The position numbers were made by a program, and so were the translations under genes. Positions 714 through 37,445 of a stretch of 45,308 nucleotides of DNA are shown in pieces. The notes beneath the pieces are model-generated. The model made no database searches, was not told where the DNA came from, and saw nothing but the letters and a program-made list of their open reading frames with translations. Source of the DNA: a bacterium (GTDB lineage Bacteria > Chloroflexota > Anaerolineae > Epilineales > Epilineaceae); contig QEVT01000005.1 in assembly GCA_003576755.1 (NCBI GenBank), positions 1-45,308 on the forward strand, in the 5' to 3' direction. Numbering within the stretch: the stretch's first letter is position 1; each line of letters opens with the position of its first letter.

Positions 714-1737
714 GCGCGGCGCGGCCGTGGGCCTCGGCGGCGCGCTGGCCGCGGCGCTGCTCGCCTGGGGCGCCATGGACACCGGCGCCGCACCGAGGCC
801 GCGCTCGATGGCCGAACCGCGATTGCGGTCGCACGACCAGGCCCGGGAGCCTGAGCTGCGCCGGGTCAACGTCATCTCCAGCCGGCCCCACGACCGCACC
901 GCCTACACCCAGGGCCTCGTGCTCCACGCGGGCGAGCTCTACGAGAGCGCGGGCGACTTCCGGCGATCGAGCTTGCGGCGGGTCGACCCGCTGACCGGCG
1001 TGGTGAAGCAGCGGCTCAACCTGCCCGACACGATTTTCGCCGAGGGTCTCGCCCTGGTCGGCGACCGCCTGATCCAGCTCACATGGCAGAACCGGGTCGC
1101 CTTCGTGTACGACCGCGCCACGTTCCGCGAGGTCGGGCGGCACAGCTACGACACCGACGGCTGGGGCTTGTGCTACGACGGCACGCGCCTGGTGATGACC
1201 GACGGCACCAGCACGATGTACTTTCGCGACCCCGACACGTTCGAGGCCGTCGGGCAGGTCGAGATCACGTCGCGCGGTCGGCCGCTGCGCGAGGTCAACG
1301 AGCTCGAGTGCGTCGGCGACACCGTCTACGGCAACGTGTTCCGGACGGACACCATCGTCGAGATCGACCCGCGCACCGGCGAGGTCGTCACCGAGATCGA
1401 CGCCGCGGGCCTGCTGACGCCCGAGGAGCAGGTCGGCGCCTATGTGCTCAACGGCATCGCCTGGGACCCTGCCACCGGGCACTTCCTCGTCACCGGCAAG
1501 GATTGGCCGCGCCTCTTCGAGGTCACCTTCGACCCCGTTCCGCCGACGGACACGGCGGTGCCGCCCGCCACGCCGACGCCGACGGACACCGCGGTGCCGC
1601 CCGCCACGCCGACGCCGACGGACACCGCGGTGCCTTCCGCCACGCCGGTGGCCACCGAGACCGCCACCCCCACGGCCACCCCCACCCTCACCCCGCGGCC
1701 CGTGATCTACGTCCCGGCGCTCCACCGTCCATCGTGA
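703..1737 (+). CDS. Glutaminyl-peptide cyclotransferase-like protein with Thr/Pro stalk and YVPAL tail
   Basis: The 344-residue protein starts at TTG 703, 4 bases after GAGGTG at 693-698, and overlaps the previous gene by 11 bases. It begins with a signal peptide: basic residues, a hydrophobic Ala/Leu stretch to about residue 25, then ALWGAMDTGAAP-like sequence. Residues about 45-275 form the cyclase beta-propeller and follow the previous gene motif by motif (AYTQGL, WGLCYDG, NELECVGD, VLNGIAWDP, GKDWPRLFEV). Residues about 277-330 are a Thr/Pro stalk made of three 12-residue repeats plus related sequence. The last residues are VIYVPALHRPS, a tail motif recurring in other secreted proteins of this window. 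Probably exported and held at the surface; how the tail works is unknown. Confidence 0.85.
   Translation: MSRERGAAVGLGGALAAALLAWGAMDTGAAPRPRSMAEPRLRSHDQAREPELRRVNVISSRPHDRTAYTQGLVLHAGELYESAGDFRRSSLRRVDPLTGVVKQRLNLPDTIFAEGLALVGDRLIQLTWQNRVAFVYDRATFREVGRHSYDTDGWGLCYDGTRLVMTDGTSTMYFRDPDTFEAVGQVEITSRGRPLREVNELECVGDTVYGNVFRTDTIVEIDPRTGEVVTEIDAAGLLTPEEQVGAYVLNGIAWDPATGHFLVTGKDWPRLFEVTFDPVPPTDTAVPPATPTPTDTAVPPATPTPTDTAVPSATPVATETATPTATPTLTPRPVIYVPALHRPS
1543..1650 (+). repeat. Three tandem 36-bp repeats encoding PTDTAVPPATPT
   Basis: Copies lie at 1543-1578, 1579-1614 and 1615-1650 and are nearly identical; the third has Ser for Pro. They encode the Thr/Pro stalk of the cyclase-like protein. Because the unit is a multiple of three bases, copy number could change by slippage without breaking the frame. 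Confidence 0.9.
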
Positions 1738-6238: not shown

Positions 6239-6250
6239 GACCCGGCGCGG

Positions 6251-9200
6251 ATGACGGCGCTGCACTGGCCGCGTGGCGACCATTGGCTCCGGCACGGGCC
6301 AGGGCGGCCGCGATCGGTGCGCCGGGCCCGCCTGGTGGCGGCGGTGGCCGCCGCGATGCTCGGGGCAGGCGTGGCGCTCGGCGGCCTGGCCTGGTCCGCC
6401 GCTGGGCCCGCGTCGGCTGGGGGTCTGGTCGGGTCGGGCCGATCGGCGGCGGTCATCGACCCCGACGTGCGGGCCGCCCTGCTGGCCGAGCCGGCCCGAC
6501 CGATCTCGGTGATGCTGATGCTCGACGCGGCCGCCGCCGCGCCGCGCGTCGCGGACCGCGCGCGGATGGACCGGCAAGCCTATCGCGGGGCGCGCGTGGC
6601 CGCGTGGCGACAGGGCCTGGCCGTCGCCGCGGCCCCGCTTCGCGACGCGATCGCGCGCGAACGCCTGGCCGGGCGCATCACGCGTGCCGACGACCTCTGG
6701 CTTGCGGACGCCCTCGTGGTGACGGCATCCCCCGGGGCGGTGTGGGCGCTGGCCGGCCATCCGGCCGTGCGGCGCATCGCCCGAGAGCCGGTCCTGACGG
6801 TCGCGCCGCGCGCCGACGGCGCCGGGCGGCTTGGCGCGACCGTACCCGCGCACCAAGCCGCGGGGGGTGCGGCCGCGGCGATCGGCCGCGAGCGGGAGGC
6901 TCCCAGCGCCGCCGCACTGCCCACCGGCGTCCCTGCCCCGCTCTGGAACATCCGCGCCATCCAGGCCAACGCGGTGTGGCAACGCCTGCGGATCGACGGC
7001 ACCGGCGTGACGATCGCGGTGGTCGACACTGGCGTGGACTACTTCCACCCCGAGCTCCAGACGCGCTATCGCGGCCACGTCGATGGCGCGATGCCCGTCA
7101 ACGACGACAACTGGTGGTGCACCCGCGACGACGTGTTCTGCGGCGTCGGCGCACGCTACCCGGTCGACGGCTTCGGCCACGGCACCCACGTCGCCGGAAC
7201 GATCGTCGCCGGCGACGGCATCGGGGTGGCGCCGGGCGCGCGCTGGATCGCCGCCCGTGCCTGCGCCGGCCGCAACTGCCCGGCCGGTTGGATCATCGGG
7301 TCCGTGCAGTGGCTGCTCTCGCTGAAGCACGATCGCCAGCCCGACGTCGTCAACGTCAGCCTGGGCACCGACAACCCGATAGAGGCCGGCCTCTTCCTCC
7401 CGGTGTTCAACCGTCTTCACGCGCTCGGGATCGTGGTCGTGGCGGCCAGCGGCAACCACGCCGGCATCCTCCAGGCGCCGGCCAGCTTCACGTCGACCAT
7501 CGGCGTCGGCGCGAGCACCGATGCCGGCGTGGTTTGGCAGGACAGCGCCCGCGGGGTGTCGGCGTGGCGGGAACCCAAGCCCGACCTGGTCGCGCCCGGG
7601 ACCGGCATCACGTCGACGGTGCCGGGCGGGGGGCGCCTTCGCAACACCGGGACGAGCATGGCCACGCCCCACGTCAGCGGCGTGGTGGCGCTGCTCCTCC
7701 AGGCGCGCCCCGACCTGTCGCCGGCAGACGTCAAGCGCATCCTGACCCGCACCGCCACCCCGCTGTCCCCGACCCGCCCGGACCCGGCGGCGGGGTGGGG
7801 CCTGGTCAACGCCTATGCGGCCGTGGTGTCGGTGTCCGATGTCGGGACGGTGCGCGGCACGGTCACCCGCGAGGCCGACGGCAAGGCGATCCCGTGGGCG
7901 CGCGTCGTGGTGGCCGACGAGGTCGGGAACCCGCTGTCCGAGGTCATCGTGGATGCCACGGATGGCCGCTATGCGGTCGACCTCGAGCCCGGCCGCTACT
8001 TGATCATCGCCCGGGCGTTCGCGTTCCGCAGCCAGACCCAGCGCATCACGGTCCAGGCGCGCCACGAAACGGAGCTCGACTTCCGGTTGGCGCTGGACGA
8101 ACCCATGGGGGTGTTCCGCGGACGGCTGGTGGATGCGCAGACAGGGGCGCCGCTGCCCGGCGAGCTCCAGCTCGACGGCGTGCCGTTCGACATCGACAGC
8201 GACGAGACGCTCGGCTTCAGCCAGAACCTGCCGCCGCAGACGTATGCCGTGCGCATCGAGAAGTTCGGCTATCGCCGCAAGACCGACGTGGTGAAGATCC
8301 TCGCCGGCGAGACGCTGTCTGTCGTGTACCGCCTGGATCCGGCGCCGAAGATCCTCCTGGTCGATGGGGATGCGTGGGCCTACAACGGCGCCATCGACTT
8401 CTACCGGGCGTCGCTCGACCGGCTCGGATACGTGTACGACGAGCACCGCGTCACCAACGATCGTGCCGGCCCCGGTCAGCCCGGCGGCCCACCCCTGGCC
8501 GGCACGATGGGCCGCTACGACGTCGTGATCTGGTCCAACGCCCTGTCCAGCCCCAACAGCGTGATGGGTGCGTGGGAGATCGCGACGTATCTCGAGCAAG
8601 GCGGCCGACTCCTCCTCTCGGGCCAGGATGCGGCGTGCTACGATGCCGGGCGCGACGTGGGCGAGCAGCCTTGCGCGCCGAATGCCCAGCCGCACCCCTA
8701 TGTGCGCCAGAAGCTCGGCCTGCGGGTCGTGCGGGATCGCGCGGCCAGCCTCGACGTCGAGGGGCTCCCCGGCGGCCCGTTGGACGGCATCACGCTGACG
8801 CTCAACGGTCCGGGGAGCATGGCCAACCAGTTGGCGCCCGACGTGTTCGACGTGACGGATCCGCTCCATGGCCGCCTGATCGCGACCTACGGCGACGGGA
8901 GCGGTGCGGTCGTGCTGACCGGCACCTGCGTGCCGTTCCGCGCGGTGGTGGCAGGCTTCGGGCTCGAAGGTGTCACCGGGGCCGCCGCGCGCGACCGATT
9001 CCTTCAGCGCGCCATCGACGTGCTGACCGCCGCGCCGGCCGAGCACGGCGTGCACGTGGCGCCCGAGCGCGCCGCGTTGACGCGCCCCCCTGGCGCCACG
9101 GCGGACTACACGTTGACGCTCCACAACATCGGCGCGCTGCCGGCCGCGGTGTCGATGGCCGCGCGCGGCCATCGGTGGCCGACCGAGCTGTGGGAGGCCG

Positions 9201-10846
9201 GGCTCACCCGCCCATTGAGCGGGACGCTGACGCTCGCGCCGTGCACGCCCCGGCCGGTGGTGGTGCGCGTCCGCGTGCCGGATGGGACGCCGCGCGGTTC
9301 GGTCGACACCGCGCACGTCGAGGTCGCCGAAGCGGGCGGCGCCTTCTCCCGCACCGTGGCGGTGCGCACCCGTACACCGGCGCCCGTGCTCGTCGTCGAC
9401 GGCGACTACAATCGCAACAGCGAAGCGCGCTACCTGTCCGCGCTCGACCAGAACGGCGTGGCGTACGACGTCTGGGAGCTCGGCTTCTTCACGGTCAACC
9501 CCAAGCTGCCCACGACCGCCACGCTGAGATCCTACCCGGCCGTGATCTGGTTCACCGGCTACGACATCCTGCGGCCGGGGGGGAGCCTGGGCATCGACGG
9601 CCAGCGCCGCCTTGCCGACTACTTGCAGGCCGGAGGACGCCTGCTCCTGTCGGCGGAGGACTTCCTTCGCCTCTGGGGCCGCACCCCGTACCGCGACGAT
9701 CGCCTCTTCCACCGCGACTTCCTCGGCGTGTCGGACTTCCTCGACGACGGCGGAGCCGCGGCGGCCGGTCCGATGCAGGGCGTCGAGGGATCGGTGCTCG
9801 CCGGGCTCGAGGGCTGTCGGCTTCCGCCCCTGGACCCGGACGACGACTTCAGCGATCGGTTGGTTCCCCGCCCCGACCGACTGTCCGCGCCGGCGCTGGT
9901 CGACATCTACGGCCAGCCGGTGGCGACGCAGCACGAAGCCGCAGGCGGCTTCAAGTCGCTGTTTCTGGCGTTCGACGCCGGTGGCCTCGATTCGTCGTGT
10001 GCGACAGCGCTCGTGGGCCGGACGCTGGACTGGTTCAGCCCGCTGCATCCGAGCACGCTCGAGATCGTCGACGCCGCCGGCCAGCCCGAGATCCGCCGGG
10101 CGTTCGCCGGCAGCGAAGTCCTGCGCTTGCGGCTCAAGTTCGCGAACAGCGGCCCGCGGTCGATCGACGATGCCCGCGTGCAGTGGCATCTGCCCGTCGG
10201 GGGCGAGCCCAACCCCGCAGGCTTGCCGCCCGGCTGGCGCTGGGACGCGATGAGCCGGGTGTTGGGCTGGTCCGGCCGCCTCGGCCCGTTCCAATCCGTC
10301 GTCGTCGTCGTCCCGTTCGCCCTCGATCGGGAGCCCGGCGACGGTGCCACCATGGCGGCAGAGGCGCGCCTGACGGGCGAAGGCATCACCGTCGCGCGCC
10401 AGGTCGCGTGGCGGGTCAACGCATCGGATCTCGGCGCATCGAGCAAGAGCGTCCCGGACGACCAGCGTGTGCGCGACCACGGCACGGCCGTCAAGTTCGT
10501 GGTCAACGTGGTCAACCTCGGCACGCGGCCCGCCCGGGCGTTTGTCGTGACGGACACGCTCCCCGCAGGCCTGACGCTCGTGCCGAGCAGCCTCACCCCC
10601 GAGGTGGGAGATGCCACCGTCGATGCCCTCGGCCGCATCATCTGGCACGGCGTCGAGCTCACGCCCGGCCGCACCGCCTCGTTGTCGTACTTCGCACGTG
10701 TGACCACCTGGGTGGGAGGGGACCTCGTCAACCGGGCCGTCCTGACCGACGACGCCGGCGGACGGTGGGACCTGACGGCGCGCATCTTCGCGCGCCCGCG
10801 GCTCGTGTTCCCTTGGCTGGGCTGGCAACGCGACCTCGACCCATAG
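6251..10846 (+). CDS. Secreted subtilisin-like serine protease (S8) with large multidomain C-terminus
   Basis: The protein has 1531 residues. A basic start and a hydrophobic segment (about residues 26-55) form a signal peptide or anchor, followed by an inhibitor-like pro-region. The S8 catalytic triad is complete: Asp259 in VVDTGVD, His310 in GHGTHVAGT and Ser469 in GTSMATPHVSG. After it come two carboxypeptidase-regulatory-like beta-sandwiches (about 535-620 and 620-697). Then come two copies of an alpha/beta module beginning KILLVDGDAW (about 698) and VLVVDGDYN (about 1046), each with a YLEQGGRLLLSGQDA-type strand. Two DUF11/CARDB-like repeats (about 1270-1520) follow, and the protein ends RLVFPWLGWQRDLDP. 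It would be exported and degrade protein outside the cell. The two alpha/beta modules resemble class I glutamine amidotransferase/ThuA folds without an obvious nucleophile. Confidence 0.9.
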   Translation: MTALHWPRGDHWLRHGPGRPRSVRRARLVAAVAAAMLGAGVALGGLAWSAAGPASAGGLVGSGRSAAVIDPDVRAALLAEPARPISVMLMLDAAAAAPRVADRARMDRQAYRGARVAAWRQGLAVAAAPLRDAIARERLAGRITRADDLWLADALVVTASPGAVWALAGHPAVRRIAREPVLTVAPRADGAGRLGATVPAHQAAGGAAAAIGREREAPSAAALPTGVPAPLWNIRAIQANAVWQRLRIDGTGVTIAVVDTGVDYFHPELQTRYRGHVDGAMPVNDDNWWCTRDDVFCGVGARYPVDGFGHGTHVAGTIVAGDGIGVAPGARWIAARACAGRNCPAGWIIGSVQWLLSLKHDRQPDVVNVSLGTDNPIEAGLFLPVFNRLHALGIVVVAASGNHAGILQAPASFTSTIGVGASTDAGVVWQDSARGVSAWREPKPDLVAPGTGITSTVPGGGRLRNTGTSMATPHVSGVVALLLQARPDLSPADVKRILTRTATPLSPTRPDPAAGWGLVNAYAAVVSVSDVGTVRGTVTREADGKAIPWARVVVADEVGNPLSEVIVDATDGRYAVDLEPGRYLIIARAFAFRSQTQRITVQARHETELDFRLALDEPMGVFRGRLVDAQTGAPLPGELQLDGVPFDIDSDETLGFSQNLPPQTYAVRIEKFGYRRKTDVVKILAGETLSVVYRLDPAPKILLVDGDAWAYNGAIDFYRASLDRLGYVYDEHRVTNDRAGPGQPGGPPLAGTMGRYDVVIWSNALSSPNSVMGAWEIATYLEQGGRLLLSGQDAACYDAGRDVGEQPCAPNAQPHPYVRQKLGLRVVRDRAASLDVEGLPGGPLDGITLTLNGPGSMANQLAPDVFDVTDPLHGRLIATYGDGSGAVVLTGTCVPFRAVVAGFGLEGVTGAAARDRFLQRAIDVLTAAPAEHGVHVAPERAALTRPPGATADYTLTLHNIGALPAAVSMAARGHRWPTELWEAGLTRPLSGTLTLAPCTPRPVVVRVRVPDGTPRGSVDTAHVEVAEAGGAFSRTVAVRTRTPAPVLVVDGDYNRNSEARYLSALDQNGVAYDVWELGFFTVNPKLPTTATLRSYPAVIWFTGYDILRPGGSLGIDGQRRLADYLQAGGRLLLSAEDFLRLWGRTPYRDDRLFHRDFLGVSDFLDDGGAAAAGPMQGVEGSVLAGLEGCRLPPLDPDDDFSDRLVPRPDRLSAPALVDIYGQPVATQHEAAGGFKSLFLAFDAGGLDSSCATALVGRTLDWFSPLHPSTLEIVDAAGQPEIRRAFAGSEVLRLRLKFANSGPRSIDDARVQWHLPVGGEPNPAGLPPGWRWDAMSRVLGWSGRLGPFQSVVVVVPFALDREPGDGATMAAEARLTGEGITVARQVAWRVNASDLGASSKSVPDDQRVRDHGTAVKFVVNVVNLGTRPARAFVVTDTLPAGLTLVPSSLTPEVGDATVDALGRIIWHGVELTPGRTASLSYFARVTTWVGGDLVNRAVLTDDAGGRWDLTARIFARPRLVFPWLGWQRDLDP

Positions 10847-24562: not shown

Positions 24563-24931
24563 CTAACCGCCGCTCGCTCCCCGCGTCCGCGCTCGCGCCA
24601 GGTCGAGCGTCTCCACGGCGTGCCGCAGGTGCGGGATGACGATGCTGCCGCCGACGACGAGGGCGACGTTGAGCGCGTCGTGGATCTCGTCGTCGGACCA
24701 GCCGGCGTCGGCGCACTGCAGCACGTGGTAGTCGATGCAGTCGTTGCAGCGCAGCACGGCGCTGGCCACCAAGCCCAGGAGCTCCTTGGTGCGGCCGTCG
24801 AGCGCCCCGTCGCGGTACGCGGCGGTGTCGAGGTTGAAGAACCGCCGGATGCCGAGGTGGTCGATCTCGGCGATGCGGGCGTTCATCCGGGCGCGGTACG
24901 CCTCGAAGGCGTCCAAGCGGTTGGCGGTCAT
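24563..24931 (-). CDS. Carboxymuconolactone decarboxylase/AhpD-like protein
   Basis: The start is ATG at 24931 on the minus strand, with GGAGGTGAG just upstream, overlapping the stop of the upstream gene by ATGA. The 122-residue all-helical protein has the family hallmark VLRCNDCIDYHVLQC: a CxxC pair with a nearby His, as in AhpD alkylhydroperoxidases, where the cysteines reduce peroxides or shuttle electrons. The context DGRTKELLGLVASAVLRC before it and GWSDDEIHDALNVALVVGG after it is typical. Both cysteines are encoded by normal codons. Small CMD proteins are often oxidoreductases of unknown substrate. Its place at the end of a glycan operon is unusual. Confidence 0.9.
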   Translation of the reverse strand: MTANRLDAFEAYRARMNARIAEIDHLGIRRFFNLDTAAYRDGALDGRTKELLGLVASAVLRCNDCIDYHVLQCADAGWSDDEIHDALNVALVVGGSIVIPHLRHAVETLDLARARTRGASGG

Positions 24932-27378
24932 CTCACCTCCACCTCGTCGAGGATGGCCCGGCGGCCGGCGGTGTCCGCCGCCGGACCGGATATCGGATAG
25001 CGCTCCAGGTTGGACGGGTCGTACGCCCCGACCTCGACCAAGTACGTCCCCGCGGGCGCCGCGGGATCGACGCGTACGACGTGGCGGTCGAACACCGCCC
25101 CCGTTCGCCACGGTCCGGACGACGGGGGGCCGTCGTGACCCGCCCACACGGGGTCGCCGGTCTCGGGGCGCGGCGGGCCGAGGACGTGGACGAACACCAC
25201 GGGTGCGGTGGCCGGGATCGGCGACCCGCCGACCTCCCACAGCAGGTCGACGGCCACCGGCGCGCCGGGCGCGATGGCTTTCGGGGCCACGCGGAAGTCG
25301 ACGAGCCTCGCAAAGCCGACGTCGGCCAACGGCGCGCCTGCCGGCGGCGGGGATGGCCAGGCGAACGGCGGATCGGGCGCCGGCAGCCCGCCGCGAACGC
25401 CGACCCGGACGAGCGGCGTCGCCGCGGCGCCACGACCATCTCCGGCCGAGCCCCAGTCCAGCCGCAGCCCGAGGCTGCCTGTCGGGAGGCGCTCGCTGAC
25501 GTCGATCACCGCCCGGCGGCGTTGGAGCGCGGTGCCGGGCGGCGCGCCGGGCACGGCCTGCTCCCACACCGGCACGTCGCCCTCGGCCGCGACGAGGCGC
25601 AGCGTGGCCGGCGGTCCGCCGGCGCCGGCGCCCGGCGCGCCACCGGCACTGCCGGCGCCGGCGAGGAACAGCGTGACGTCCAGACGATCGCCCGGCAGCC
25701 CGACGCGCGCCGGCTCGCCGAACGCCGGCAGCCGCGGCGCGCGCGTCGCGGACAGCCCGGGCATCGCGCTCGAGAGCATCGTCAGCCGCGGTGCCCGGCC
25801 GTCTCGGGCATACAGATGGAGCGCGTCGGCGCCGTACGCTTCGCTGAGCACCCGCGGCAGACGGTCGTCGAGCCAGGCTTCGAGCCGCCCGTCGGGATCC
25901 TGCAGGTGGCGGTCGACCGCGGCGAGCCACACGCGATCGTGCCCCGCGACGATGGCCTCGAGGCCGGCCTGCCAGCCGACTTCGCCGATCTGGTCGCTGC
26001 CGCGGCTCGGGAAGGGGATCACCGGCGGCCGGTTCGCGCTCCCAGGCCGACCGTCGTCCGGCAAGGCGATCGCCGGCGCCCGCCCACCCCGGTCCCACGG
26101 CATGTCGTAGTCGTAGAGGAACATCGGGTAGCGGTTGCCGCTGACCAGCACGACCGCGTCGCCGGGCTCGGCCTGGGTCCAGATCGCCAGCGCCATGGCC
26201 CGCGTCTCGTCGCGCCAGCGCCGCCCGGCGAAGTGCGGCGCGAGATGGGCCAGCGCGGTCAGGACGACGACGGCCACCAGGACCGCGCCAAGGGCGGCGC
26301 CCCGGCGCCACGCCCGTGCCAGCACGACGCCCGCCAGCACGTATGCCGGCGCCGCGAACGGCACGAAGTAGCGCGCCTCGACCGCAGGTGCATAGAACAA
26401 CGACCGCGGCCGCGTCGCCAGCCACACCGCGGCGGGCGGGAGGACCACGAAGAGCGCCAGCGCGATCCAGGGGAAGCTCCAGACGCTCGATCGGAGGTCC
26501 GGCCCGGGCGGCCGGGAGGGCGGCGCGGACCACCTCGGCCGCCAACGGGGAAGGCGACCCCACGCCCGCACCGCGGCGATCGTGAGCGCCGCCCCACACG
26601 CCGCCGTCGCCGGTCCGGCACGCTCGATGTCGGTCGACACTCCCGTGGCCAGCAGCGTCGCCCACAGGCGGGCGATGAACCCCGGCGCGGCGGGCGCCTC
26701 GGCCACCTGCCACGACTGCATCCGACCGGCGGCGTATCCCCACCACGGCAGGAACAAGCCGACGATCGCGACGTGGGCCGCGAGCCAGGCCGCAAGCCGC
26801 CGCCGGTCGATCCGCCCGGCCGCCGCGGTGGCCACGATGCCGAGGTTGAGGACGGCCACGGTCACGCCGGCCAGGTAGACGGTGTGCAGCGCGGCGAGCG
26901 CGGCGACCGCGTAGGCGAACAGCCAGCGCCCGCCGTCGTCGACCCAGCGAAACGCCGCGTACACGGCGGCCAGGCCGGCGAGGCTGGCCAGCATGTACAT
27001 GCGCAGCTCCTGGGACCACGCGACCTCGAAGGGTGAGACCGCCACCAGCACCACTGCGATCACGCCCGCCGGCCGACCGGCCAGCCGAAGGCCGATGGCG
27101 CCGGCCAGCGCCACGGTCAGCACGCCCCAGACGACCGTCAGGAAGCGGGCCGCGAGCTCGGTCTGGCCCACCAGGCGCACCCAGCCCCACAGCGTCCAGA
27201 AGAACAGCGGGGGGTGGACGTCGGAAGCCGTCCACGCCGTCACGCCGGCAAACGACTGGCGCACCGCCCAGATCGCCAGGGCCTCGTCCCACCAGACGTT
27301 CTGCTCGCCCAGCCGGAAGACGCGCAGCGCGAACGCGGCCAGCACGCCGACCGCCATGGCCGTGCGCCAGCGTGTCAC
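24928..27378 (-). CDS. GT39-family-like membrane glycosyltransferase with C-terminal beta-rich domains
   Basis: It starts at GTG 27378 (GTGA overlap with the upstream hydrolase) and has 816 residues. An N-terminal membrane helix is followed by NVWWDEALAIWAV (Asp31-Glu32, the GT-C acidic pair) and DVHPPLFFWTLWGW (His55). SPFEVAWSQELRMYMLASLAG matches the other GT39 protein in this window. About ten membrane segments run to about residue 390. The C-terminal 400 residues are soluble and include a beta-rich, Gly/Ala-rich part and a final domain with PVVFVHVLGPPRPETGD and GTYLVEVGAYDPSNLERY. It would transfer sugar from a lipid carrier on the outer side of the membrane. Coupling to the glycoside hydrolase gene suggests action on the same polymer; acceptor unknown. 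Confidence 0.82.
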   Translation of the reverse strand: MTRWRTAMAVGVLAAFALRVFRLGEQNVWWDEALAIWAVRQSFAGVTAWTASDVHPPLFFWTLWGWVRLVGQTELAARFLTVVWGVLTVALAGAIGLRLAGRPAGVIAVVLVAVSPFEVAWSQELRMYMLASLAGLAAVYAAFRWVDDGGRWLFAYAVAALAALHTVYLAGVTVAVLNLGIVATAAAGRIDRRRLAAWLAAHVAIVGLFLPWWGYAAGRMQSWQVAEAPAAPGFIARLWATLLATGVSTDIERAGPATAACGAALTIAAVRAWGRLPRWRPRWSAPPSRPPGPDLRSSVWSFPWIALALFVVLPPAAVWLATRPRSLFYAPAVEARYFVPFAAPAYVLAGVVLARAWRRGAALGAVLVAVVVLTALAHLAPHFAGRRWRDETRAMALAIWTQAEPGDAVVLVSGNRYPMFLYDYDMPWDRGGRAPAIALPDDGRPGSANRPPVIPFPSRGSDQIGEVGWQAGLEAIVAGHDRVWLAAVDRHLQDPDGRLEAWLDDRLPRVLSEAYGADALHLYARDGRAPRLTMLSSAMPGLSATRAPRLPAFGEPARVGLPGDRLDVTLFLAGAGSAGGAPGAGAGGPPATLRLVAAEGDVPVWEQAVPGAPPGTALQRRRAVIDVSERLPTGSLGLRLDWGSAGDGRGAAATPLVRVGVRGGLPAPDPPFAWPSPPPAGAPLADVGFARLVDFRVAPKAIAPGAPVAVDLLWEVGGSPIPATAPVVFVHVLGPPRPETGDPVWAGHDGPPSSGPWRTGAVFDRHVVRVDPAAPAGTYLVEVGAYDPSNLERYPISGPAADTAGRRAILDEVEVR

Positions 27379-29258
27379 GACGGGACGGGCTCGACGTCCG
27401 CCGGAGCGTCACCGTCGCCGTGGGCGCGCCCGCCGGCGCGCATGCGGCGCCACACCAGCCATGCCATGACCGGGATGCCACCGAGCAGCGCCCATCGCAG
27501 CGCGTTGCGCAGCAGCCACGCCCACAGCGGGTCGAACGGCGCCGGCGGCGGCGGACCGAAGACCTGGATGTGGTCGATCCACGCCTCGCCGGCATCGACC
27601 CGCACGATCAGGAGGTGCTCGCCGGCGTCGAGCTCGCGCCGGCCGCGGTGCCAATCCCCGGGATCGTCGAGCAGGTCCGAGTGCTCGAGCGTGAAGCCGT
27701 CGTCGGTGGCCGCGGGCACCAGCGTGCGGCTGATGTCGTCGAGCACCACGAACAGGCGCGGCGCGTCGCCGAGGGAGGGGTTCACGGCGCCGTCCGCCGC
27801 CGCCGCGCCCGCCGCCGTGCCGCCGCCGACGGTCACCGGCCGCCGCGAGAGGCTGAGTCGGAACCCCGTGCCGGCGAAGCTGAGCTGGAGCTCGGCCGTC
27901 TCGGCGCCGACCTTCTGGTCGAGCGGCCCCGACTCGGGCACGTTCCGCCATGGACCGTTGTACTGCAGCGCCACGGCATCCGGCGCATGCCGCCCGCGCC
28001 GGAGCACGGGATACCGGTTGGCCAGCCCTGCGAGCGCCAGGTACGTCTCGGTCTTGCGCCAGTCGGGCTCCAGCACCCGGAAGTAGCCCTCCGGACGGCG
28101 ATGCCACTCCCAATCCGGGCGCCGCAGGAACCACAGGAAGGCCGTGCCGACCCACGGCCACTCCTCCGCCATGCGGTCGTAGGCTTGCCGAGTGTAGACG
28201 GCCCGCAGCGACTCGTCGACGCGCCCGTACGGCGCCGCCATCAGCGGCGGGGGGCTGTCCCACCCGAACTCGGTGATCCACACCGCCTTGTCGGCGTCGT
28301 TGTGCCGGACCATGACGTCGCGCAGCAGCATCGGCCGCGAGAAGTTCACGCGGTCCGCGCTCGCGCGGCGATCGGTCGGGCCGGTCCACAACCCGAAGGC
28401 CTGGACAGCGAGCACGTCGAACTCGTTCTGCCACCCGGCGCGGTACAGGGCGTCGAGGTAGCGCAGGTCGTCCATGTTGCGGCCGCCCGGCTCGGTGGTC
28501 GGCGCCAGCGCGGCGCTGACCACGACCACGTCGTCGCATGCCGCGTGCGCGCGCTGCGAGGCCACGCCCAACAGCCGGGCGTAGCCCTCGGGGTCGACGT
28601 CGCGCTCGCCCCATTCGGGGTAGATGTTCGGCTCGTTCCAGATCTGGTAGTACCGCACGCGCCCGCAGTAGCGCTCGACCACGGCGGCCACGAAGTTGCC
28701 GAAGTCCTCGAGGTCGTCGGGCGGGCCCTTCTTGGCGCCTTGCTGTTCGGGATGCGCGTACGCCCAGTCGGGGGGATCGTCGAGCCGGACCAGCAGCTGG
28801 ACGCCATGGTCGGTGGCGGTTTGGACGATCCGATCGTACTTGTCCCACGCCGAGCGCGGCGGCGCGTTGCGGCGGTCCTCGAAATCGCCCCGGCCGTGGA
28901 TCTCGATGTCCTCCCATGGGAACTGCTGGCGCGCCCAGCCGATGCCGGCGTCGCGCAGCATGGCGAACGAACGGCGTACGTTCGCGGGGTCGGCTTCGAG
29001 CTGCACGAACGTGTTGACGCCGAAGCGGTTGGCACCCTTGTGGTGGATGGGCGCGTCTGGCGCCAGGTCGAGCTCCGGCCCGGTCACCGCCAGCACCGCC
29101 AGCGCGCCGGCGCCCTTGATCCCCTCCCACCACGACTCTTCGCCCGTGTTGGCGCGCAGCCAGTCGGCCAGCGTCGCCGAGCGCAGGAAGGCGAGGCCCC
29201 ACAGGGCAGCCGTCCCGAGCACGGCGGCGGCGACCAGGCGGCGGATCGAAAGGCGCAT
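27375..29258 (-). CDS. Membrane-anchored glycoside hydrolase-like TIM-barrel protein (clan A type)
   Basis: The ATG at 29258 is chosen because GGAG lies 7-8 bases upstream; an ATG at 29270 would add four residues. The protein has 627 residues. The N-terminal hydrophobic helix (LVAAAVLGTAALWGLAFL) is a signal anchor. Residues about 75-400 form a TIM barrel with RFGVNTFVQLEADP, the acid/base Glu209 in YYQIWNEPN and the likely nucleophile Glu330 in WITEFGWDSPP. This is the two-glutamate pattern of clan GH-A families such as GH5, GH39 and GH42. A beta-sandwich follows (about 430-575), then a second membrane helix (LLRNALRWALLGGIPVMAWLVW) and a short cytoplasmic tail. It should face outside and cut or remodel a surface glycan; substrate unknown. 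Confidence 0.85.
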   Translation of the reverse strand: MRLSIRRLVAAAVLGTAALWGLAFLRSATLADWLRANTGEESWWEGIKGAGALAVLAVTGPELDLAPDAPIHHKGANRFGVNTFVQLEADPANVRRSFAMLRDAGIGWARQQFPWEDIEIHGRGDFEDRRNAPPRSAWDKYDRIVQTATDHGVQLLVRLDDPPDWAYAHPEQQGAKKGPPDDLEDFGNFVAAVVERYCGRVRYYQIWNEPNIYPEWGERDVDPEGYARLLGVASQRAHAACDDVVVVSAALAPTTEPGGRNMDDLRYLDALYRAGWQNEFDVLAVQAFGLWTGPTDRRASADRVNFSRPMLLRDVMVRHNDADKAVWITEFGWDSPPPLMAAPYGRVDESLRAVYTRQAYDRMAEEWPWVGTAFLWFLRRPDWEWHRRPEGYFRVLEPDWRKTETYLALAGLANRYPVLRRGRHAPDAVALQYNGPWRNVPESGPLDQKVGAETAELQLSFAGTGFRLSLSRRPVTVGGGTAAGAAAADGAVNPSLGDAPRLFVVLDDISRTLVPAATDDGFTLEHSDLLDDPGDWHRGRRELDAGEHLLIVRVDAGEAWIDHIQVFGPPPPAPFDPLWAWLLRNALRWALLGGIPVMAWLVWRRMRAGGRAHGDGDAPADVEPVPS

Positions 29259-30244: not shown

Positions 30245-33200
30245 CTACCGCCCACCCCAGAACGCCGCGCGCGGACACGGGATCTCTCCCGCCACCTGGG
30301 CGTAGATCGCGGCAAGCTCGGCCGGCGACGGCGCGATGTACACCTGCGCCGGCTCTCCCGTCAGCGCCGCCAGCGCCGTTGGATCGACCTGGGCGCCCAG
30401 CCCGACGGCGTACATCCGCACCCGGGCCTGCCGGACCGCCCGCGCCGCGCGCCCCGCCGCCTCCGGCGACTCGACCTGTTCGCCGTCGGTCAGGAGCACG
30501 ATCACGGGCTGGCTCGCCGGCCGGGCGCGCGGGCCGAGCAGCTCGAGCCGGGCCCGATCCAGCCCGCGGTCGATGCGCGTGCCCGGCTGCGTCTGCGACA
30601 GGCCGGCCAGCGCGACGTCCAGCGCGGCACGGTTGCCGGTGAGGCGGCTGATCAGCGCCGCCTGGGTGTTGAAGGCCACGACGCCGGCCTGGTCGGCCGG
30701 CAGGTTCAGCAGGCCGAGGAACTGCGCGGCGGCCGCCCGTGCGGCCGCAAGGCCCTCCCCGGCCATGCTGTTGGAGGTATCGATGACGAGCATCACGTCC
30801 GTCCGCCGCTCGCCCGGCACGCACCGCTCGCGCACGGCCAGCGGGAGGTACACCGGCCCGCGGGGACGCGTGCGGCGTGTCGGGGTCGCGGACGGCCGCG
30901 GGGTCCGGGTCGGCGTGGCGGTGGCGGTCGCGGTGGCCGACGCGGGCGGGGTGGGGGTCGCCGTCGGCGTCGCCGGCGGGCCGATCACCTGCACGCGCGG
31001 CACCGGGAAGTCCAATCGGCCCGCGCGCCCGTACCCGTCGACGTAGTCGGCCCAGGCCTCGACGTTGGTCGGCCACTCGCCGGCGGCGAGCGGCTCGAGC
31101 CGGTAGCGCAGCCGCACGCCACCCAGCGGAACGCCGTCGAGGGTCCAGCGGAGCGTGCCGGCGGCCGGGTCGAAGGCCGCGGCGGGGACATCGCTGCCGG
31201 CGACGAAGCGCATGTTGGCGGGGAGGCGGTCGGTGATGTCGAGGCGCCGGAACAAGGCCGAAGCGCTGATCTGGTCGCCGATGCGTTCGAAGATCGCCCC
31301 GAGCGCCCGTGCGCTCTGGACCGGATGGTGGTGGTCGGGTCCCGACGCGATCGCCGTCAGGAGGCCGACGTCTCCCTGCACGTTGATGGTGAAGACCTCG
31401 GCACCGGCCTGTTTGGCGCGGGCGGCTTCGCGCAAGGCGGGCGCGGGGTCGCTGCCGCCGTCGGACAACAGGATCAACACGGGTGCGGCGCCGGGCCGGC
31501 CGTTGCGCGAAAGCTCGGCGTTGGCCACCGCCAGCCCCTGGTCGATGCGGGTGCCGCCCCGCGCCACGAGCCCGGCGAGCGCCCGCCGCAGCAGCGCCTC
31601 GTCGGGCGTGAGCGGCGCGTCGAGCGTCGCGCCGTCGTTGAACGAGACGATGCCGATCCGCGAGACGGCCAGGTCGGCGTTTGACACGAAGTCCGCCGCG
31701 GCCTCGCGCGCGAGCTGGATGCGCTCGCCGAGCATCGAGCCCGAGCGGTCGATGATGAGCAGGATGTCGAGCGGGACCGTGGCCACCTGAGCCGTGCACG
31801 TGCCGCCCACGCCGAGCGTGACCTCGACCGTGGCGCCGAGGTCGATCGTGCCCGGCGCGGCGGTCTTGTCGCCGGCGCTTTCGCAGCGGGCCTGGTTCTC
31901 GGGAGGATCGGCGCCGGCGGCGACCGAGTCCCACCGGTAGCGCGTGACGACGTCGGCGTCGCGGTCCGCCACGAACACGTCCCCGCCGGCATCCACCGCC
32001 AGGTCGGCAGGCGCGGACCGCGGCGTCAGGTCTGGGCGCCGGGCGTCGAACGCCAGCACGCGCGCGCCGCCGCCGTCATACCCCCGCACCCAGCCGTCGC
32101 GACCCAGGACGAGCACCACGCCGTCGTCGCGCGTCGCCACGCGGCGGGCGCCCGACGCGGCGGTGAAGCGCGCCATGCCGCCGGGGCCGACGCGCACCAC
32201 TTCCGACGCGTAGCGGTCGAGCACGTACGCCGTCCCGGCGGCGCCGGTGGCCAGGTCGGTCCACACCGAGGGTCTCCCCGGTACCGCCGGCAGCGCCGTG
32301 TTGCCGAGGCGCGCGCCGGCGGCGCTGAAGCGGTGGAGCGCCCCCCCGCCGGCGTCCAGCGCCACGATCTGGGCGGTCGCGCGGTCGAACACGAGCGCCG
32401 CCACCGACGTCGTGGCGTCCGGCCCGACCGCGGCCTGCCAGCGCAGCGTCCCGGCCGCCGTGCGCGCGAACACGCGCACGCCGTCGGTCGTGAAGACGGT
32501 GCCGTCGGGCCCGGCGTCGACGGCGGCCGATGCGCCGGTGCTCACCTGTCCCCGGCTCTGCCCGGCCGGCGTGAACCACTGTGCCCGCGGCGCGCGGTCG
32601 AGCACGTACACGTGCCCGTCGGCGCCGACCTGCAGCGTGTCGGGGCCGTCGAGCACGCCGGCCGGCGCGATCGGGCCACCCCAGGACGCGGTGGGCGGCC
32701 CGGCGAGCGCCGTGACGCCGTAAGGGTACCGGTGGACCTTCGACGCGGCGCCACCGCCGCCCGGTTGAACGACGACCAGCCCGGACCTCGGGTTCACGGC
32801 CAAGGCCGTGAGCCGCCCCACCGTGCCGGCATTCCACTGCTGCCGCACGGGGTCGTGGAACAAGAGCCCCGTGTCGGTGGTGAACCAGAGCCAGCGTCGG
32901 GTGACGATGCCGACGTTGTCGTCGACGACGACGTCGTTGACGGCGCCCGGCAGGAGGATGGTGTCGGTGCGCTGTCCGCGCCGGTCGAACAGCAGCAGCC
33001 GAGGTGCGCGTCCGTCGAGCACGGCGAGCGTGCCGTCGGCCGAGACGTCCAGCCCCCCGATCAGGTCGGCGGTGATGCCGTCGGCGCGGACGGCGCGCCA
33101 GGCGCCCAGCGGTGCGCCGTCCGGCGTGAACCGGTGCACCTCGCCGGTGCTGGCCGAGCCGGTGTACACCGTGCCGTCCGGCGCGACCCCGATGCCCGCG

Positions 33201-33652
33201 AGCCCGGCCGCGGCGTCCCATTCGGCCAGCCGCGCGCCGTCCATGCCGAACACGACGACGGCCTGCGCGCCGGGGTCGGCGGCGTACACCCGCTGCCGGC
33301 CGTCGTCGACGGCCAGGTCGCGCGGCGTCACCAGGCCCGGATCCGCGCCGGGCGGGTGGAGCAGGCGCACGGCGCCGCCCGGCTCGATCACCGAGATCCG
33401 TGCCGTCGTGGCGTCGGCCACGTAGATGCGCCCGGCCCGGTCGACGGCCACGCCCGATGCCGCCGGCCACGCGTCTGCCGGCAGACCGGGGCGGCCTTCG
33501 GGCCACGTGGCGACGGCGGTGTAGGCGCCGGCGGATGCGCGCAACGGCGCCGGCCCGCCCAACCATCCCAGCATGGCCGCCAACGCCACGCAGGTCACCG
33601 GCCGCCAGCGACGGGAGCGCGGGGCCGGGCGGTGGGGCGTGGTCGATGGCAT
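30245..33652 (-). CDS. Secreted beta-propeller protein with two von Willebrand A domains
   Basis: This 1135-residue protein starts at ATG 33652 with a signal peptide (WRPVTCVALAAMLGWLGG). Residues about 45-570 are NHL/SMP-30-like beta-propeller repeats: VAVDRAGRIYVADATT, LAVDDGRQRVYAADP, ADLAVDAGGDVFVADRD. The first vWA domain begins near 630 with a MIDAS motif DRSGSM (Asp635); the second near 953 with DTSNSM (Asp958). Between them lie a beta domain, a Thr/Pro-rich stalk (about 895-930) and VYLPLAVRERC (935-944). vWA domains bind partners through a metal ion. The protein should be extracellular and adhesive or scaffold-like. Unusually, the stalk-plus-YLPL element is internal here, not at the C-terminus. 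It ends 18 bases after the protease gene upstream and may share its transcript. Confidence 0.85.
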   Translation of the reverse strand: MPSTTPHRPAPRSRRWRPVTCVALAAMLGWLGGPAPLRASAGAYTAVATWPEGRPGLPADAWPAASGVAVDRAGRIYVADATTARISVIEPGGAVRLLHPPGADPGLVTPRDLAVDDGRQRVYAADPGAQAVVVFGMDGARLAEWDAAAGLAGIGVAPDGTVYTGSASTGEVHRFTPDGAPLGAWRAVRADGITADLIGGLDVSADGTLAVLDGRAPRLLLFDRRGQRTDTILLPGAVNDVVVDDNVGIVTRRWLWFTTDTGLLFHDPVRQQWNAGTVGRLTALAVNPRSGLVVVQPGGGGAASKVHRYPYGVTALAGPPTASWGGPIAPAGVLDGPDTLQVGADGHVYVLDRAPRAQWFTPAGQSRGQVSTGASAAVDAGPDGTVFTTDGVRVFARTAAGTLRWQAAVGPDATTSVAALVFDRATAQIVALDAGGGALHRFSAAGARLGNTALPAVPGRPSVWTDLATGAAGTAYVLDRYASEVVRVGPGGMARFTAASGARRVATRDDGVVLVLGRDGWVRGYDGGGARVLAFDARRPDLTPRSAPADLAVDAGGDVFVADRDADVVTRYRWDSVAAGADPPENQARCESAGDKTAAPGTIDLGATVEVTLGVGGTCTAQVATVPLDILLIIDRSGSMLGERIQLAREAAADFVSNADLAVSRIGIVSFNDGATLDAPLTPDEALLRRALAGLVARGGTRIDQGLAVANAELSRNGRPGAAPVLILLSDGGSDPAPALREAARAKQAGAEVFTINVQGDVGLLTAIASGPDHHHPVQSARALGAIFERIGDQISASALFRRLDITDRLPANMRFVAGSDVPAAAFDPAAGTLRWTLDGVPLGGVRLRYRLEPLAAGEWPTNVEAWADYVDGYGRAGRLDFPVPRVQVIGPPATPTATPTPPASATATATATPTRTPRPSATPTRRTRPRGPVYLPLAVRERCVPGERRTDVMLVIDTSNSMAGEGLAAARAAAAQFLGLLNLPADQAGVVAFNTQAALISRLTGNRAALDVALAGLSQTQPGTRIDRGLDRARLELLGPRARPASQPVIVLLTDGEQVESPEAAGRAARAVRQARVRMYAVGLGAQVDPTALAALTGEPAQVYIAPSPAELAAIYAQVAGEIPCPRAAFWGGR

Positions 33653-33670
33653 GGTCCTGACGCGATCTGT

Positions 33671-36600
33671 CTAGCGCCGTGCCGAACGCCGATGGGCCAG
33701 CGCCAGCGGCAGGTAGCGTTTCGTCACGCGGGGCGGCGCGCTCGGGGAGGGCATTGCCGTCGCCGTCGGGCTCGGACGCGCCGTCTGCGTCGCCGTCGCC
33801 GTCGGCGGCCACGGCGTCGCGGTGTTCGCATGCGACGGCGGGGTCGACTTCACGTCGGTCGTCGGCGTGGGCGTCGACTCCGGCGGCGCGCCGGTGGCGG
33901 TGGGCGCCAGTGGCTCGCCGGTCGCGGTGGGCTCGGCGGGCTCGGCCGTGGGGCTAGGCGGCGGCGGCTCCGTCGAACCGGGGTCGGCGGTCGCCGTTGG
34001 CGCGCCGGTCGCGGTGGGCTCGACGGGCTCGGCCGTGGGGCTAGGCGGCGGCGGCTCCGTCGAACCGGGGTCGGCGGTCGCCGTTGGCGCGGTGAACGGC
34101 ACGCGGACGTCGAGGGCCGGGTCGCCGAACAGGGCGTACGTCTCGATCAGGTCGCGGTAGCCCGTCGACGCGGTGCTGAGCGCCAGCTTGCTCCCCACGA
34201 CCACCTGGCCGAGGTGCCGCACGCCGCCGCCGAGCAGCTGGTCGGCGAACGCGCGGTTCATGTGGTCGTGGCCGGTGGCGACCCCGAACCCCGTCGGCGA
34301 GAACGCCGCGATGGCGCCGCCGCCGGCCGTGCGGACGGCGGACTCCGAGATCGAGAACAGCCGCGGGTCGCTGAAGAACCCGGTCATGCACGTCATGTCG
34401 AGCAGCACCGGCAGCCGCCGTCCGTTCTTGAGGACGCGCACGTCGCGGCCGGTCCACATCTGCTCCTGCGCCCAGCCGGTGATCAGCCCGTGCCCGACGT
34501 ATTGCGCGAGCAGGTAGCCGTCCATGAAGCCGGCCCTCAGGGCTTCGCCCGCGGCCGCGGCGTCGGCGTGGGTGCGCTTGAGGTAGACGCGGTCGACGGT
34601 GTATCCCGGGGGGACGTGGTGGTCGATGACGTCGTCCGACAACGCGTAGAAGTCGCCGGCGCTGTCGGGATCGTCGGTGGCGAACAGCAGCTTGCGCTGC
34701 CACGGCTCGACGTCGGCCGTCGCGCCGTAGGCCACGATCTTCGACACCATCGCCGTGACCTCGGCGGCCGAGTTGGCCGGCAGCCGGCCGAGAAACAGGT
34801 CGGGGAAGACGTCGTCGCCGCTCACCGTCACGAAGGCGTTCTCGACCGCCACCTCCCCGAGCCAGGGGTCGGCCTCCTTGAGGAACGGCGGGATGAGCGT
34901 CGCCGGCCCGGTCCCCAGCCGGTTGCGCGGGTCGTACGTGCCGTCGCCGACCAGCAGCACGTGGCTCGGCGCCGGCTCGGGCCACGCTGCAAATGCGTGG
35001 GCCACGAAGGCGCGGATGGCCTCGGCGGAGGCCACCCCGCCGTTGAACACGTCGTACACGCCCTGCACGTCGACCACGGCCACCCGCCGCCCGGCACGCA
35101 CGTGGTGGTCGACAAGTGGCTTGAGCGCGGCATGGAAGGCCGCCGGCGCGATCATCAAGTAGTCGGCGCCCCGCGCCGGCGCCAGCAGGCCGGCCGCCGG
35201 GCGCGCCTCGATCCGGGCGGCGCGCAGGTAACCGCCGCGCAGCACGATGCGATACGGCCGGCCGCCTCCCGGCAGGTCGCGGAAGCGCATGCGGTACGCG
35301 GCCCCGGCCTCGACGACATCCGCGCCGTCCACCCACGCCGGGCGCCGCGGGTCGCCGACGTCCACGAGGTCGACCGCCGCTTCGCCGAGGCCGTCGACGG
35401 CGATCCCCTGCTCGGGCGCCGCATCGGTGACGAAGGCGAGCTGGCCCGACCCGGCCGCCCGGAACACACGGCGGTAGGCGAGGTCGATCGTGTCGACGAA
35501 GAAGTGGTCGTAGGCCGCTCCGGGCATCCCGGGGGCCTCGACGCGGATCTCGGTCGTCGGGCCCCGCAGCAGGTCGGCGGGGACGTCGAACGCGACGCGC
35601 GCCACCGAGGTGTTGCCGTCCCAGTCGGCCTCGCCGACCTGCCGGCCGGCCACGTGCACCCGCACCCGGTGGTCGGGCGCCTGGGTCGGGAACGCGGACT
35701 TGCCGACCAGGGCGAGGCTCAACCGACCCGCCCACGCCCCGGGCGCCACGCCGGTCAGCGCCACGGTGTGCGCCAGCGACTGCGGCGCGCTGAGCTGTTG
35801 CCAGAAGAAGTGGTCCACGGGCTCGGGCGGCGTGCCGTCAAGCGCCGGACGCGGGTAGTCCGAGCGGTAGAGCTGGTCTTGTTCGAGGTGCAGCGTCGCC
35901 GTGTAGGCCTCCGCCGCCGGCGCCAGACCGGGCGCGCCGTCGCGCCGCGGCATCCGCAGCCCGGGGACGGCGCCGTAGGCCAGCTGGTAGACGTTCAACG
36001 CCGCGTAACGTGACGCCGTCGGCCGCCCGAAGAAGACCACCGCGTCCGAAGCGTTCAGGAGGGCGTCGCCCTCGCCCTCGACGTGCATGGCCACCGGCTG
36101 CCCTCCGGCGTACAGCTGCAGGCGGCGCGGGTCGATGGCGTCGATCGGGAGCCCCGCCAGCGCCAGGTCGGCGCCGGTCACGCGGTACAGCCCCTCTTCC
36201 GCGACGGCGATGTTCCACACCGGCTGCACGTCCGCCGGCACGGTGGGCGGCTCCGCGGGCGGCAACACCTCGCGGGGCCGGTCGACGCGCCACGCACGCG
36301 CCGAGGCCGCGTTGAGGAGCGACGCGTCGATGATGGCGTCGAACGCGTCGGGAGGCCCACCCACGGCGGGCGCGCGCGCCGCCGGCGGTGCGCCCGCGCC
36401 GTCCGGGGCATCCATCGATACCTCGACCTCGAGCCGGGGCCAGACCACGAGGCGCTCGGTGCGGGCGTGATACTGGAACGGGCGGATCTCGATCCGGGCC
36501 ACGCGCTGGCCTCGGATCCAGCCGACGTCGGTGATGGTCGCCAGCTCGGCGGGATAGGCTGCCCCGGCGGCGTACGCGCGGGCGTCGCGGCGCATGACGG

Positions 36601-37171
36601 TTGGCGGCGACGGGTCGGGCCGTCCGCGCGCACCGGGATCGGCCCAGACGGCCTCGACCGCATCGCCGTTGGGGCTCGGCGCGGGCGCGATCCGCACGCG
36701 GTCGATTGACGCCGGTTCGCCCAGGGGGGTCACCGCGACCCTGGGCGTGCCGTGGGGCGGGATCCCGAGCAAGGCGGCCGCGACCGGCACCTGGGGCCGC
36801 CCCGGCTCGCTCGACGCCGCCAACCGGGGCGCCTGGATCGCCACGGCGCCCGGGCCGCCCGCGGGGCGCTCGACCAAGGAGTAGCGCGGCGTGTCGAGCG
36901 CCACCACGATCCGCGCGGCGTCGGAATGCAGCAGGCGGATCGGCGCGGGGTCCACCTGACGCGCCGTCGAGGCGGGGGCACCGGACACGGCGGCCGCCAG
37001 TCCCGTCGTCGTGGCGACGACGAGCGCCGCCGCCCGGTTGGCCCGCCACGCGAACACCGTCGCCGGACGTCGCCCCGACGGTCCCCCGGCTCGACCATCG
37101 AACGGGCGACCGACGCGCGGGCGCGGCGTGCGCGCGATTGGCAAAGGACCACAGATGCTCGAAAACCGCAT
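33671..37171 (-). CDS. Gingipain-like secreted cysteine protease (peptidase family C25)
   Basis: The ATG at 37171 gives 1166 residues. A GTG at 37057 would place the hydrophobic segment (RAAALVVATTTGLAAAV) closer to the start and is a serious alternative. A propeptide-like beta region (about 60-370) comes first. The C25 catalytic domain follows: SHVLLVGDGTYDP, GRLPANSAAEV, His894 in QYVGHG and Cys928 in LDMTCMTGFFSDP, spaced as in gingipains. YALFGDPALDVRVPF marks its end. A Thr/Pro/Glu stalk of about 110 residues contains two 29-residue repeats, and the protein ends RYLPLALAHRRSARR. It should be exported and degrade or process surface proteins. The Bacteroidetes C-terminal secretion domain of true gingipains is absent and replaced by the stalk and tail. 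Confidence 0.87.
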   Translation of the reverse strand: MRFSSICGPLPIARTPRPRVGRPFDGRAGGPSGRRPATVFAWRANRAAALVVATTTGLAAAVSGAPASTARQVDPAPIRLLHSDAARIVVALDTPRYSLVERPAGGPGAVAIQAPRLAASSEPGRPQVPVAAALLGIPPHGTPRVAVTPLGEPASIDRVRIAPAPSPNGDAVEAVWADPGARGRPDPSPPTVMRRDARAYAAGAAYPAELATITDVGWIRGQRVARIEIRPFQYHARTERLVVWPRLEVEVSMDAPDGAGAPPAARAPAVGGPPDAFDAIIDASLLNAASARAWRVDRPREVLPPAEPPTVPADVQPVWNIAVAEEGLYRVTGADLALAGLPIDAIDPRRLQLYAGGQPVAMHVEGEGDALLNASDAVVFFGRPTASRYAALNVYQLAYGAVPGLRMPRRDGAPGLAPAAEAYTATLHLEQDQLYRSDYPRPALDGTPPEPVDHFFWQQLSAPQSLAHTVALTGVAPGAWAGRLSLALVGKSAFPTQAPDHRVRVHVAGRQVGEADWDGNTSVARVAFDVPADLLRGPTTEIRVEAPGMPGAAYDHFFVDTIDLAYRRVFRAAGSGQLAFVTDAAPEQGIAVDGLGEAAVDLVDVGDPRRPAWVDGADVVEAGAAYRMRFRDLPGGGRPYRIVLRGGYLRAARIEARPAAGLLAPARGADYLMIAPAAFHAALKPLVDHHVRAGRRVAVVDVQGVYDVFNGGVASAEAIRAFVAHAFAAWPEPAPSHVLLVGDGTYDPRNRLGTGPATLIPPFLKEADPWLGEVAVENAFVTVSGDDVFPDLFLGRLPANSAAEVTAMVSKIVAYGATADVEPWQRKLLFATDDPDSAGDFYALSDDVIDHHVPPGYTVDRVYLKRTHADAAAAGEALRAGFMDGYLLAQYVGHGLITGWAQEQMWTGRDVRVLKNGRRLPVLLDMTCMTGFFSDPRLFSISESAVRTAGGGAIAAFSPTGFGVATGHDHMNRAFADQLLGGGVRHLGQVVVGSKLALSTASTGYRDLIETYALFGDPALDVRVPFTAPTATADPGSTEPPPPSPTAEPVEPTATGAPTATADPGSTEPPPPSPTAEPAEPTATGEPLAPTATGAPPESTPTPTTDVKSTPPSHANTATPWPPTATATQTARPSPTATAMPSPSAPPRVTKRYLPLALAHRRSARR
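33917..34090 (-). repeat. Two 87-bp tandem repeats in the protease stalk
   Basis: Bases 33917-34003 and 34004-34090 are almost identical; one visible change gives Ala versus Val. Each encodes 29 residues (PTATADPGSTEPPPPSPTAE plus nine more). The near identity suggests a recent in-frame duplication lengthening the stalk. Confidence 0.88.
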
Positions 37172-37445
37172 GCCAAGACCATCCGAAATCGCAACGGCGC
37201 GAACCCGAATCCCAATGACCCACCTTGGCCGGCCCGGACCGCTTCGGGGGAGATGGGCAACGCCGGCGCGTCGCGCCACAATGGGCTGCCCAACCGTTCA
37301 GACGTCGCGAGGGCCTCGGAAGTCACGGCGAGTTGTCCAGGACCGCCCCGCGTCCGCCGCACGGCGGATGCCGTTGGGCTCGGGCTTGCGGTATCATCAT
37401 GTCGAAACGGTGCACACACCCGGCATCTTCCCGAGGAGGACGAGC
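37172..37445. other. Divergent intergenic region between the C25 protease and uspA
   Basis: These 274 bases separate two divergent genes and are locally less GC-rich. On the + strand TATCAT at 37392-37397 could be a -10, but no -35 stands at the right distance. I could not find a convincing minus-strand promoter either. If the protease starts at GTG 37057 the region extends to that point. Confidence 0.4.

Follow-up and report, generated by a model that had tools for sequence, protein, structure and literature searches.

The closest described relatives of the element discussed here are two NCBIfam models, NF050076 (sort_motif_YLP, 'YLP-box putative sorting motif-containing protein') and NF053834 (ultrashort_CTERM). 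A literature search found no paper using the term 'YLP-box', none on a C-terminal YLPLV motif and none fitting a Chloroflexi CTERM signal. The window analysed here is the whole 45,308-nt stretch of contig QEVT01000005.1 (assembly GCA_003576755.1) from a bacterium of the family Epilineaceae (Chloroflexota, Anaerolineae). Its first-pass annotation had proposed that the YLPL-like tails of four secreted proteins, in three of them behind a Thr/Pro stalk, form an unnamed candidate surface-sorting signal. The motif already had a name, since NF050076 and NF053834 fall exactly on the boxes of proteins recovered in the genome scan described below, and the proposed function agrees with NCBI's own, putative, guess.

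Three of the four quoted strings are boxes, the one in a glutaminyl cyclase being weak; the other two belong to a C25 family peptidase and an NHL/vWA protein. Both of these proteins have N-termini that look like signal peptides by eye, and in both boxes hydrophobic residues and a basic one come after the Y-L-P core. The C25 protease ends in RVTKRYLPLALAHRRSARR, as first quoted, with YLPL encoded at 33704-33715. In the NHL/vWA protein the string RGPVYLPLAVRERC (YLPL read from the sequence at 30839-30850) is internal: the box lies at residue 935 of 1135, 190 residues ahead of the C-terminus, with a Thr/Pro/Ala stalk on one side and the second vWA domain on the other. The C25 and vWA genes share a strand, with 18 bases between the stop codon of the first and the start codon of the second, so they probably form one transcription unit.

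To place these boxes among others, we used profile A2 (16 columns, 29 tails), seeded from hits in genomes of the window's family and including the C25 and cyclase tails of the window, in a six-frame search of 199 genomes of the class. At E≤0.1 it matched 29 places in the window's own genome and 31 and 28 in two genomes of the same family, with 0.1 expected in each; elsewhere in the class most genomes gave 0-3 matches. The A2 count thus reflects a real family of sequences. The vWA box of the window scores 16.0 bits against profile A3, which was built without it (domain i-Evalue 6e-6 in a 19-protein search). The C25 tail is part of both profiles and its own score of 12-13 bits is not independent; support for this box comes instead from other C25 proteins that keep a box at their ends.

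NF050076 has a curated cut-off of 15 bits, and most boxes from the genome scan fall just under it because a single box scores only 11-15 bits. In the window's own genome NF050076 matches 10 places at E≤10, 3 of them above the cut-off, and A2 and A3 find 23-29. The boxes of the window are not among these NF050076 matches, and a vWA-type box of the same genome (C100) passes the model at 15.5 bits with its neighbours in frame. Since the boxes of the window fall below this model, their family carries what is, judged by sequence, a divergent variant of the known YLP-box. The existing database model therefore misses a variant.

An untargeted scan supports the motif independently of these profiles' taxonomic focus. 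The pattern V-Y-L-P-L-V-[LIVMF]-R, written in degenerate codons and blind to taxon, stalk and stop codon, was run against 84,980 genomes, one per species; Chloroflexota were assigned by record title. It returned at least 119 stretches, and 86 of 119 are from Chloroflexota, a phylum that makes up only a few per cent of species (here and below, scan counts are among the matches listed). In Chloroflexota open reading frames (ORFs) of at least 90 residues, 56 of 84 boxes begin no more than 26 residues from the stop, against 4.1 expected under uniform placement and a largest value of 14 in 20,000 simulations. In other phyla 1 of 15 boxes lies near the stop (1.2 expected), and strict C-terminal boxes occur in 0 of 205 ORFs. 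Exactly at the Arg end 18 of the 84 Chloroflexota boxes. By a home-made test, signal-peptide-like N-termini are present in 23 of 30 C-terminally boxed proteins, 14 of 16 otherwise boxed proteins and 67 of 321 flanking ORFs. The proposal that the motif would be enriched at the ends of signal-peptide proteins, which the first-pass annotation had put forward as a check, is thus borne out. So is its view that proteins of unrelated kinds share the motif: BLAST sorts 69 tail proteins into 48 clusters, among them glycoside hydrolase 123, FG-GAP, LRR and PKD proteins. No PDB sequence matches the motif profile. The motif is real and under selection.

The consensus is approximately [VI]-[YWF]-L-P-[LVIMW]-[VA]-x-R, exposed and most often forming the last 8-12 residues. 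Otherwise, the box lies between domains or directly behind the signal peptide. It was internal or N-terminal in 28 of the 84 Chloroflexota ORFs, so it is not strictly the tail first described, and a C-terminal place is not obligatory; at five loci (L156, L193, L207, L217 and L218) it directly follows a signal-peptide-like segment, at the start of the mature protein. A Thr/Pro stalk, at first considered part of the motif, is likewise rejected as a defining feature: 5 of the 19 C-terminal hits in the window's family follow a stalk and 14 do not. The observation that no membrane helix follows the motif stands, as no hydrophobic helix was found past the boxes inspected. With regard to stalks, we also note two large multi-pass membrane proteins in the window (22364-24547(+) and 24928-27408(-)), whose WDE...HPPLYYW look we take to be that of ArnT/PMT-type glycosyltransferases that could glycosylate Thr/Pro stalks.

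Boxes ahead of vWA domains form a class of their own in the window's family, with 50 hits, 40 of which follow a stalk. A box Cys and a C-terminal Cys occur together in 45 of 48 box+vWA proteins of the family, and the protein of the window has both. The termini of a vWA domain lie close to each other; a disulfide between the two cysteines, which we infer from this pairing, would therefore place an internal box by the end of the protein. The box before a vWA domain with two conserved cysteines is a divergent YLP-box form of this family. In each of the genomes G000, G001 and G002 (loci L031-L056 and L220-L253) there are at least 13-20 paralogues composed of stalk, YLP-box, vWA domain and C-terminal Cys.

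In several Chloroflexota families most C25 proteases end in a box (VTLPLVQR, VALPLVQR, IFLPVVGR or LYLPMVMRAFPR directly at the stop), and a right-hand alignment of ten C-termini shows invariant L, P, V and R at positions -6, -5, -3 and -1 with a variable linker ahead of them. The protease of the window has a stalk of more than 100 residues inserted between domain and box, and the box is still terminal. One C25 protease (L159:6274-7998(-)) has two boxes, RTYLPLVLRD in its N-terminal part and HLFLPLVMGD at its end; its AlphaFold model has a predicted local distance difference test (pLDDT) score of 42 and is uninformative on tail docking.

The other two tails fared less well. The glutaminyl-peptide cyclotransferase at 625-1737(+) ends in TPRPVIYVPALHRPS, as first quoted, and its tail is a weak, probable box. 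An adjacent cyclase paralogue (3-713) stops at the domain end (FEVRFEP) with neither stalk nor box. The second copy runs on with a stalk and PVIYVPALHRPS; since its paralogue stops where the domain stops, this stretch looks like an appended module, and the two genes are a natural before/after pair for one. The subtilase at 6239-10846(+) ends in RPRLVFPWLGWQRDLDP, three residues beyond the string quoted for it. It has no stalk and matches neither A2 nor A3, and its tail is rejected as a box. The four strings therefore separate into three boxes, of which one is internal and one weak, and one end that does not fit.

Table. Features of the window bearing on the YLP-box.
Feature	Position	Strand	Basis
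Weak, probable box PRPVIYVPALHRPS ending the glutaminyl cyclase	1693..1734	+	10.4 bits with A2 (contains it); -1.7 bits with A3 (does not)
Thr/Pro stalk of the glutaminyl cyclase	1543..1692	+	Sequence
Subtilase C-terminus LVFPWLGWQRDLDP, not accepted as a box	10802..10843	+	Matches neither profile
NHL/vWA protein with internal box	30245..33652	-	Pfam NHL and two vWA matches
Cys codon close to the vWA-protein C-terminus (EIPC)	30275..30277	-	Would pair with the box Cys in the proposed disulfide
Second vWA domain, C-terminal to the box	30299..30799	-	Pfam PF00092, residues 952-1118; AlphaFold pLDDT ~90 over most
YLP-box variant RPRGPVYLPLAVRERC within the vWA protein	30821..30868	-	Profile match, E 2.9e-5
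Cys codon immediately past the vWA-protein box (RERC)	30821..30823	-	Box Cys of the paired-Cys set
Thr/Pro/Ala stalk ahead of the vWA-protein box	30869..30979	-	Sequence read
C25 peptidase gene, PorU-like	33671..37279	-	PF01364 7e-77; NF033707 T9SS_sortase 195 bits, below the 420 cut-off
C-terminal YLP-box of the C25 protease, PRVTKRYLPLALAHRRSARR	33674..33733	-	Profile match; sequence itself in the profiles
Thr/Pro stalk linking the C25 domain to the box	33734..34084	-	Sequence; relative L159 has no stalk but a box at its end

We know of no account of how secreted proteins stay on the multilayered envelope of Chloroflexota. The reading that we favour, with a probability of about 0.4, is that the YLP-box is a short linear targeting peptide of their secreted proteins, docked non-covalently at the envelope. 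Its more specific version, a position-independent docking tag for an undescribed envelope receptor, of which the window's family would have a vWA form clamped by cysteines, we put forward still more tentatively. Boxed proteins would be exported via Sec; the box would then add as a short strand to a groove of an envelope receptor, and this contact would keep the protein on the cell surface, neither cut nor inserted into the membrane. Any Thr/Pro stalk would set distance only, and in the box+vWA family the Cys-Cys disulfide would keep the internal box beside the C-terminal end of the domain. That the box occurs in several positions and has no membrane helix behind it speaks for binding more than for cleavage at the C-terminus. 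If the docking reading is true, proteins are sorted here without cleavage, lipid or membrane helix. A tag of ten residues that recurs dozens of times in a genome offers a way to find whatever receptor or enzyme reads it, and could be used as it is for display.

Several observations weigh against docking. We found no receptor for the box, and clustering of the neighbourhoods of scan loci gave no recurrent neighbour gene family. A Roseiflexus metagenome-assembled genome carries a box (L123), and cryo-electron tomography of Roseiflexus castenholzii showed neither an S-layer nor an outer membrane (PMC7332563), which makes a simple S-layer receptor unlikely. Two thirds of the scan boxes are C-terminal, and they often end at the Arg. 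Such an end bias is not required of a pure docking tag and is expected of a cleavage or carboxylate-recognition signal; it is the best argument for a rival explanation, and the internal copies could be decayed or differently used.

That rival, in which a dedicated enzyme, either a sortase or a PorU-like C25 peptidase, cuts the box as a C-terminal sorting signal and then attaches the protein to an envelope component, seems to us doubtful but survives best. Beyond the strong C-terminal bias, it draws on the conserved Arg at or near the end, where cleavage would suit some clan CD enzymes, and on the resemblance of Chloroflexota C25 proteins to PorU, the type IX sortase. On the other side, removal as a tail is impossible for boxes that are internal or follow the signal peptide, there is no transmembrane segment after the box to keep the substrate at the membrane, and C25 proteins are themselves box-bearing. 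We compared 26 box-rich with 26 box-poor genomes, chosen by A3 counts, for the enzymes concerned. Sortase is present in 26/26 box-rich genomes, as the rival would have it, but also in 20/26 box-poor ones; being nearly universal, its presence is uninformative on the box. C25 proteins occur in 23/26 box-rich versus 7/26 box-poor genomes, and in 27/31 box-rich genomes versus 42/369 others of a 400-genome phylum sample (naive Fisher 3e-19, a p-value that is not trustworthy since the five-hit threshold was picked after seeing the data and the relatedness of the genomes is uncorrected). C25 is absent, however, from the box-rich genome G016 (a single contig, 98% complete, in which NF050076 matches 18 times), from G051, which is related to it, and also from box-rich G072 and G326. 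Given G016, C25 is a frequent box carrier and not a demonstrated processor. Exosortase does not track the box: 5 of the 52 genomes have it, and outside the window's own family hardly any box-rich genome does. The search for a co-occurring processing enzyme suggested at first pass thus left none of exosortase, sortase and C25 as a universal partner. Unlike nearly all other Chloroflexota compared, the three genomes of the window's family all encode an exosortase (G000:C9:2944-3693, G001:C141:15141-15884 and G002:C21:10654-11400) and may have a PEP-CTERM-like system besides.

Instead of being a localisation signal, the box might help the protein to mature or keep it stable, for example as a recognition site for a protease or chaperone outside the cytoplasm or as a shield against exopeptidases; we consider this unlikely. 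Its short, hydrophobic character, its place at termini or domain borders, its enrichment on proteins with signal-peptide-like N-termini and its tolerance of position would all fit; the near-invariant L-P and the conserved Arg imply a specific reader, and an element of general use in folding or stability would be expected to be less patchily distributed within the phylum. Less probable again is that the string in the vWA protein has no relation to the tails and simply forms the N-terminal strand of that protein's second vWA domain. The ~50 box+vWA copies in three genomes are paralogues that may have inherited the box with one domain, and the Cys pair ties the box to the domain end. Nevertheless, AlphaFold places the box outside the confident vWA fold, with pLDDT <50 (from an alignment of only 2 sequences), C-terminal boxes on unrelated proteins share the consensus, and the vWA-type C100 passes NF050076. 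Chance likeness among ends rich in Pro, Arg and hydrophobic residues, in a genome of 74% G+C, may account for the tail of the subtilase and perhaps that of the cyclase, but as an explanation of the motif it is very improbable in the face of the E-values, the C-terminal enrichment, the phylum specificity and the lack of strict C-terminal boxes in other phyla.

The YLP-box can be set against four described systems. Like LPXTG motifs, which are read by sortases, it is short and ends secreted proteins, often past a Pro/Thr-rich region; unlike them it has neither LPXTG nor a membrane helix and may also be N-terminal or internal, and the combination of LPXTG-like motif, transmembrane helix and basic tail was not found at the inspected boxes. 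Like the tags of PEP-CTERM/exosortase and MYXO-CTERM/myxosortase, it is taxon-specific and marks dozens of proteins in a genome that are unrelated to each other. A transmembrane helix is part of those tags, and the YLP-box has none; with exosortase present in the window's own genome and absent from most box-rich genomes, the boxes do not belong to PEP-CTERM. PorU of type IX secretion carries its own sorting signal, and so does the C25 protein of the window, which is closest to PorU among NCBIfam models. A beta-propeller protein (L199:2562-5237(-)) weakly like PorZ (81 bits, cut-off 260) also ends in a YLP-box, and PorU-like and PorZ-like proteins are thus both box-bearing in Chloroflexota. Type IX signals, however, are folded domains of ~80 residues for crossing an outer membrane and the YLP-box has ~10 residues; no Pfam or NCBIfam match to a type IX C-terminal sorting domain was found at the four protein ends of the window, and Chloroflexota are without genes for the beta-barrel assembly machinery (BAM) and lipopolysaccharide (PMC13319060). 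Closest are NF050076 and NF053834. The YLP-box treated here has in common with these models the Y-L-P core and the place at the ends of secreted Chloroflexota proteins; at the scan loci NF050076 coincides with boxes at C-termini and with those behind signal peptides. The boxes of the window differ in being unmatched by NF050076, and the one before the vWA domain with its paired cysteines is divergent.

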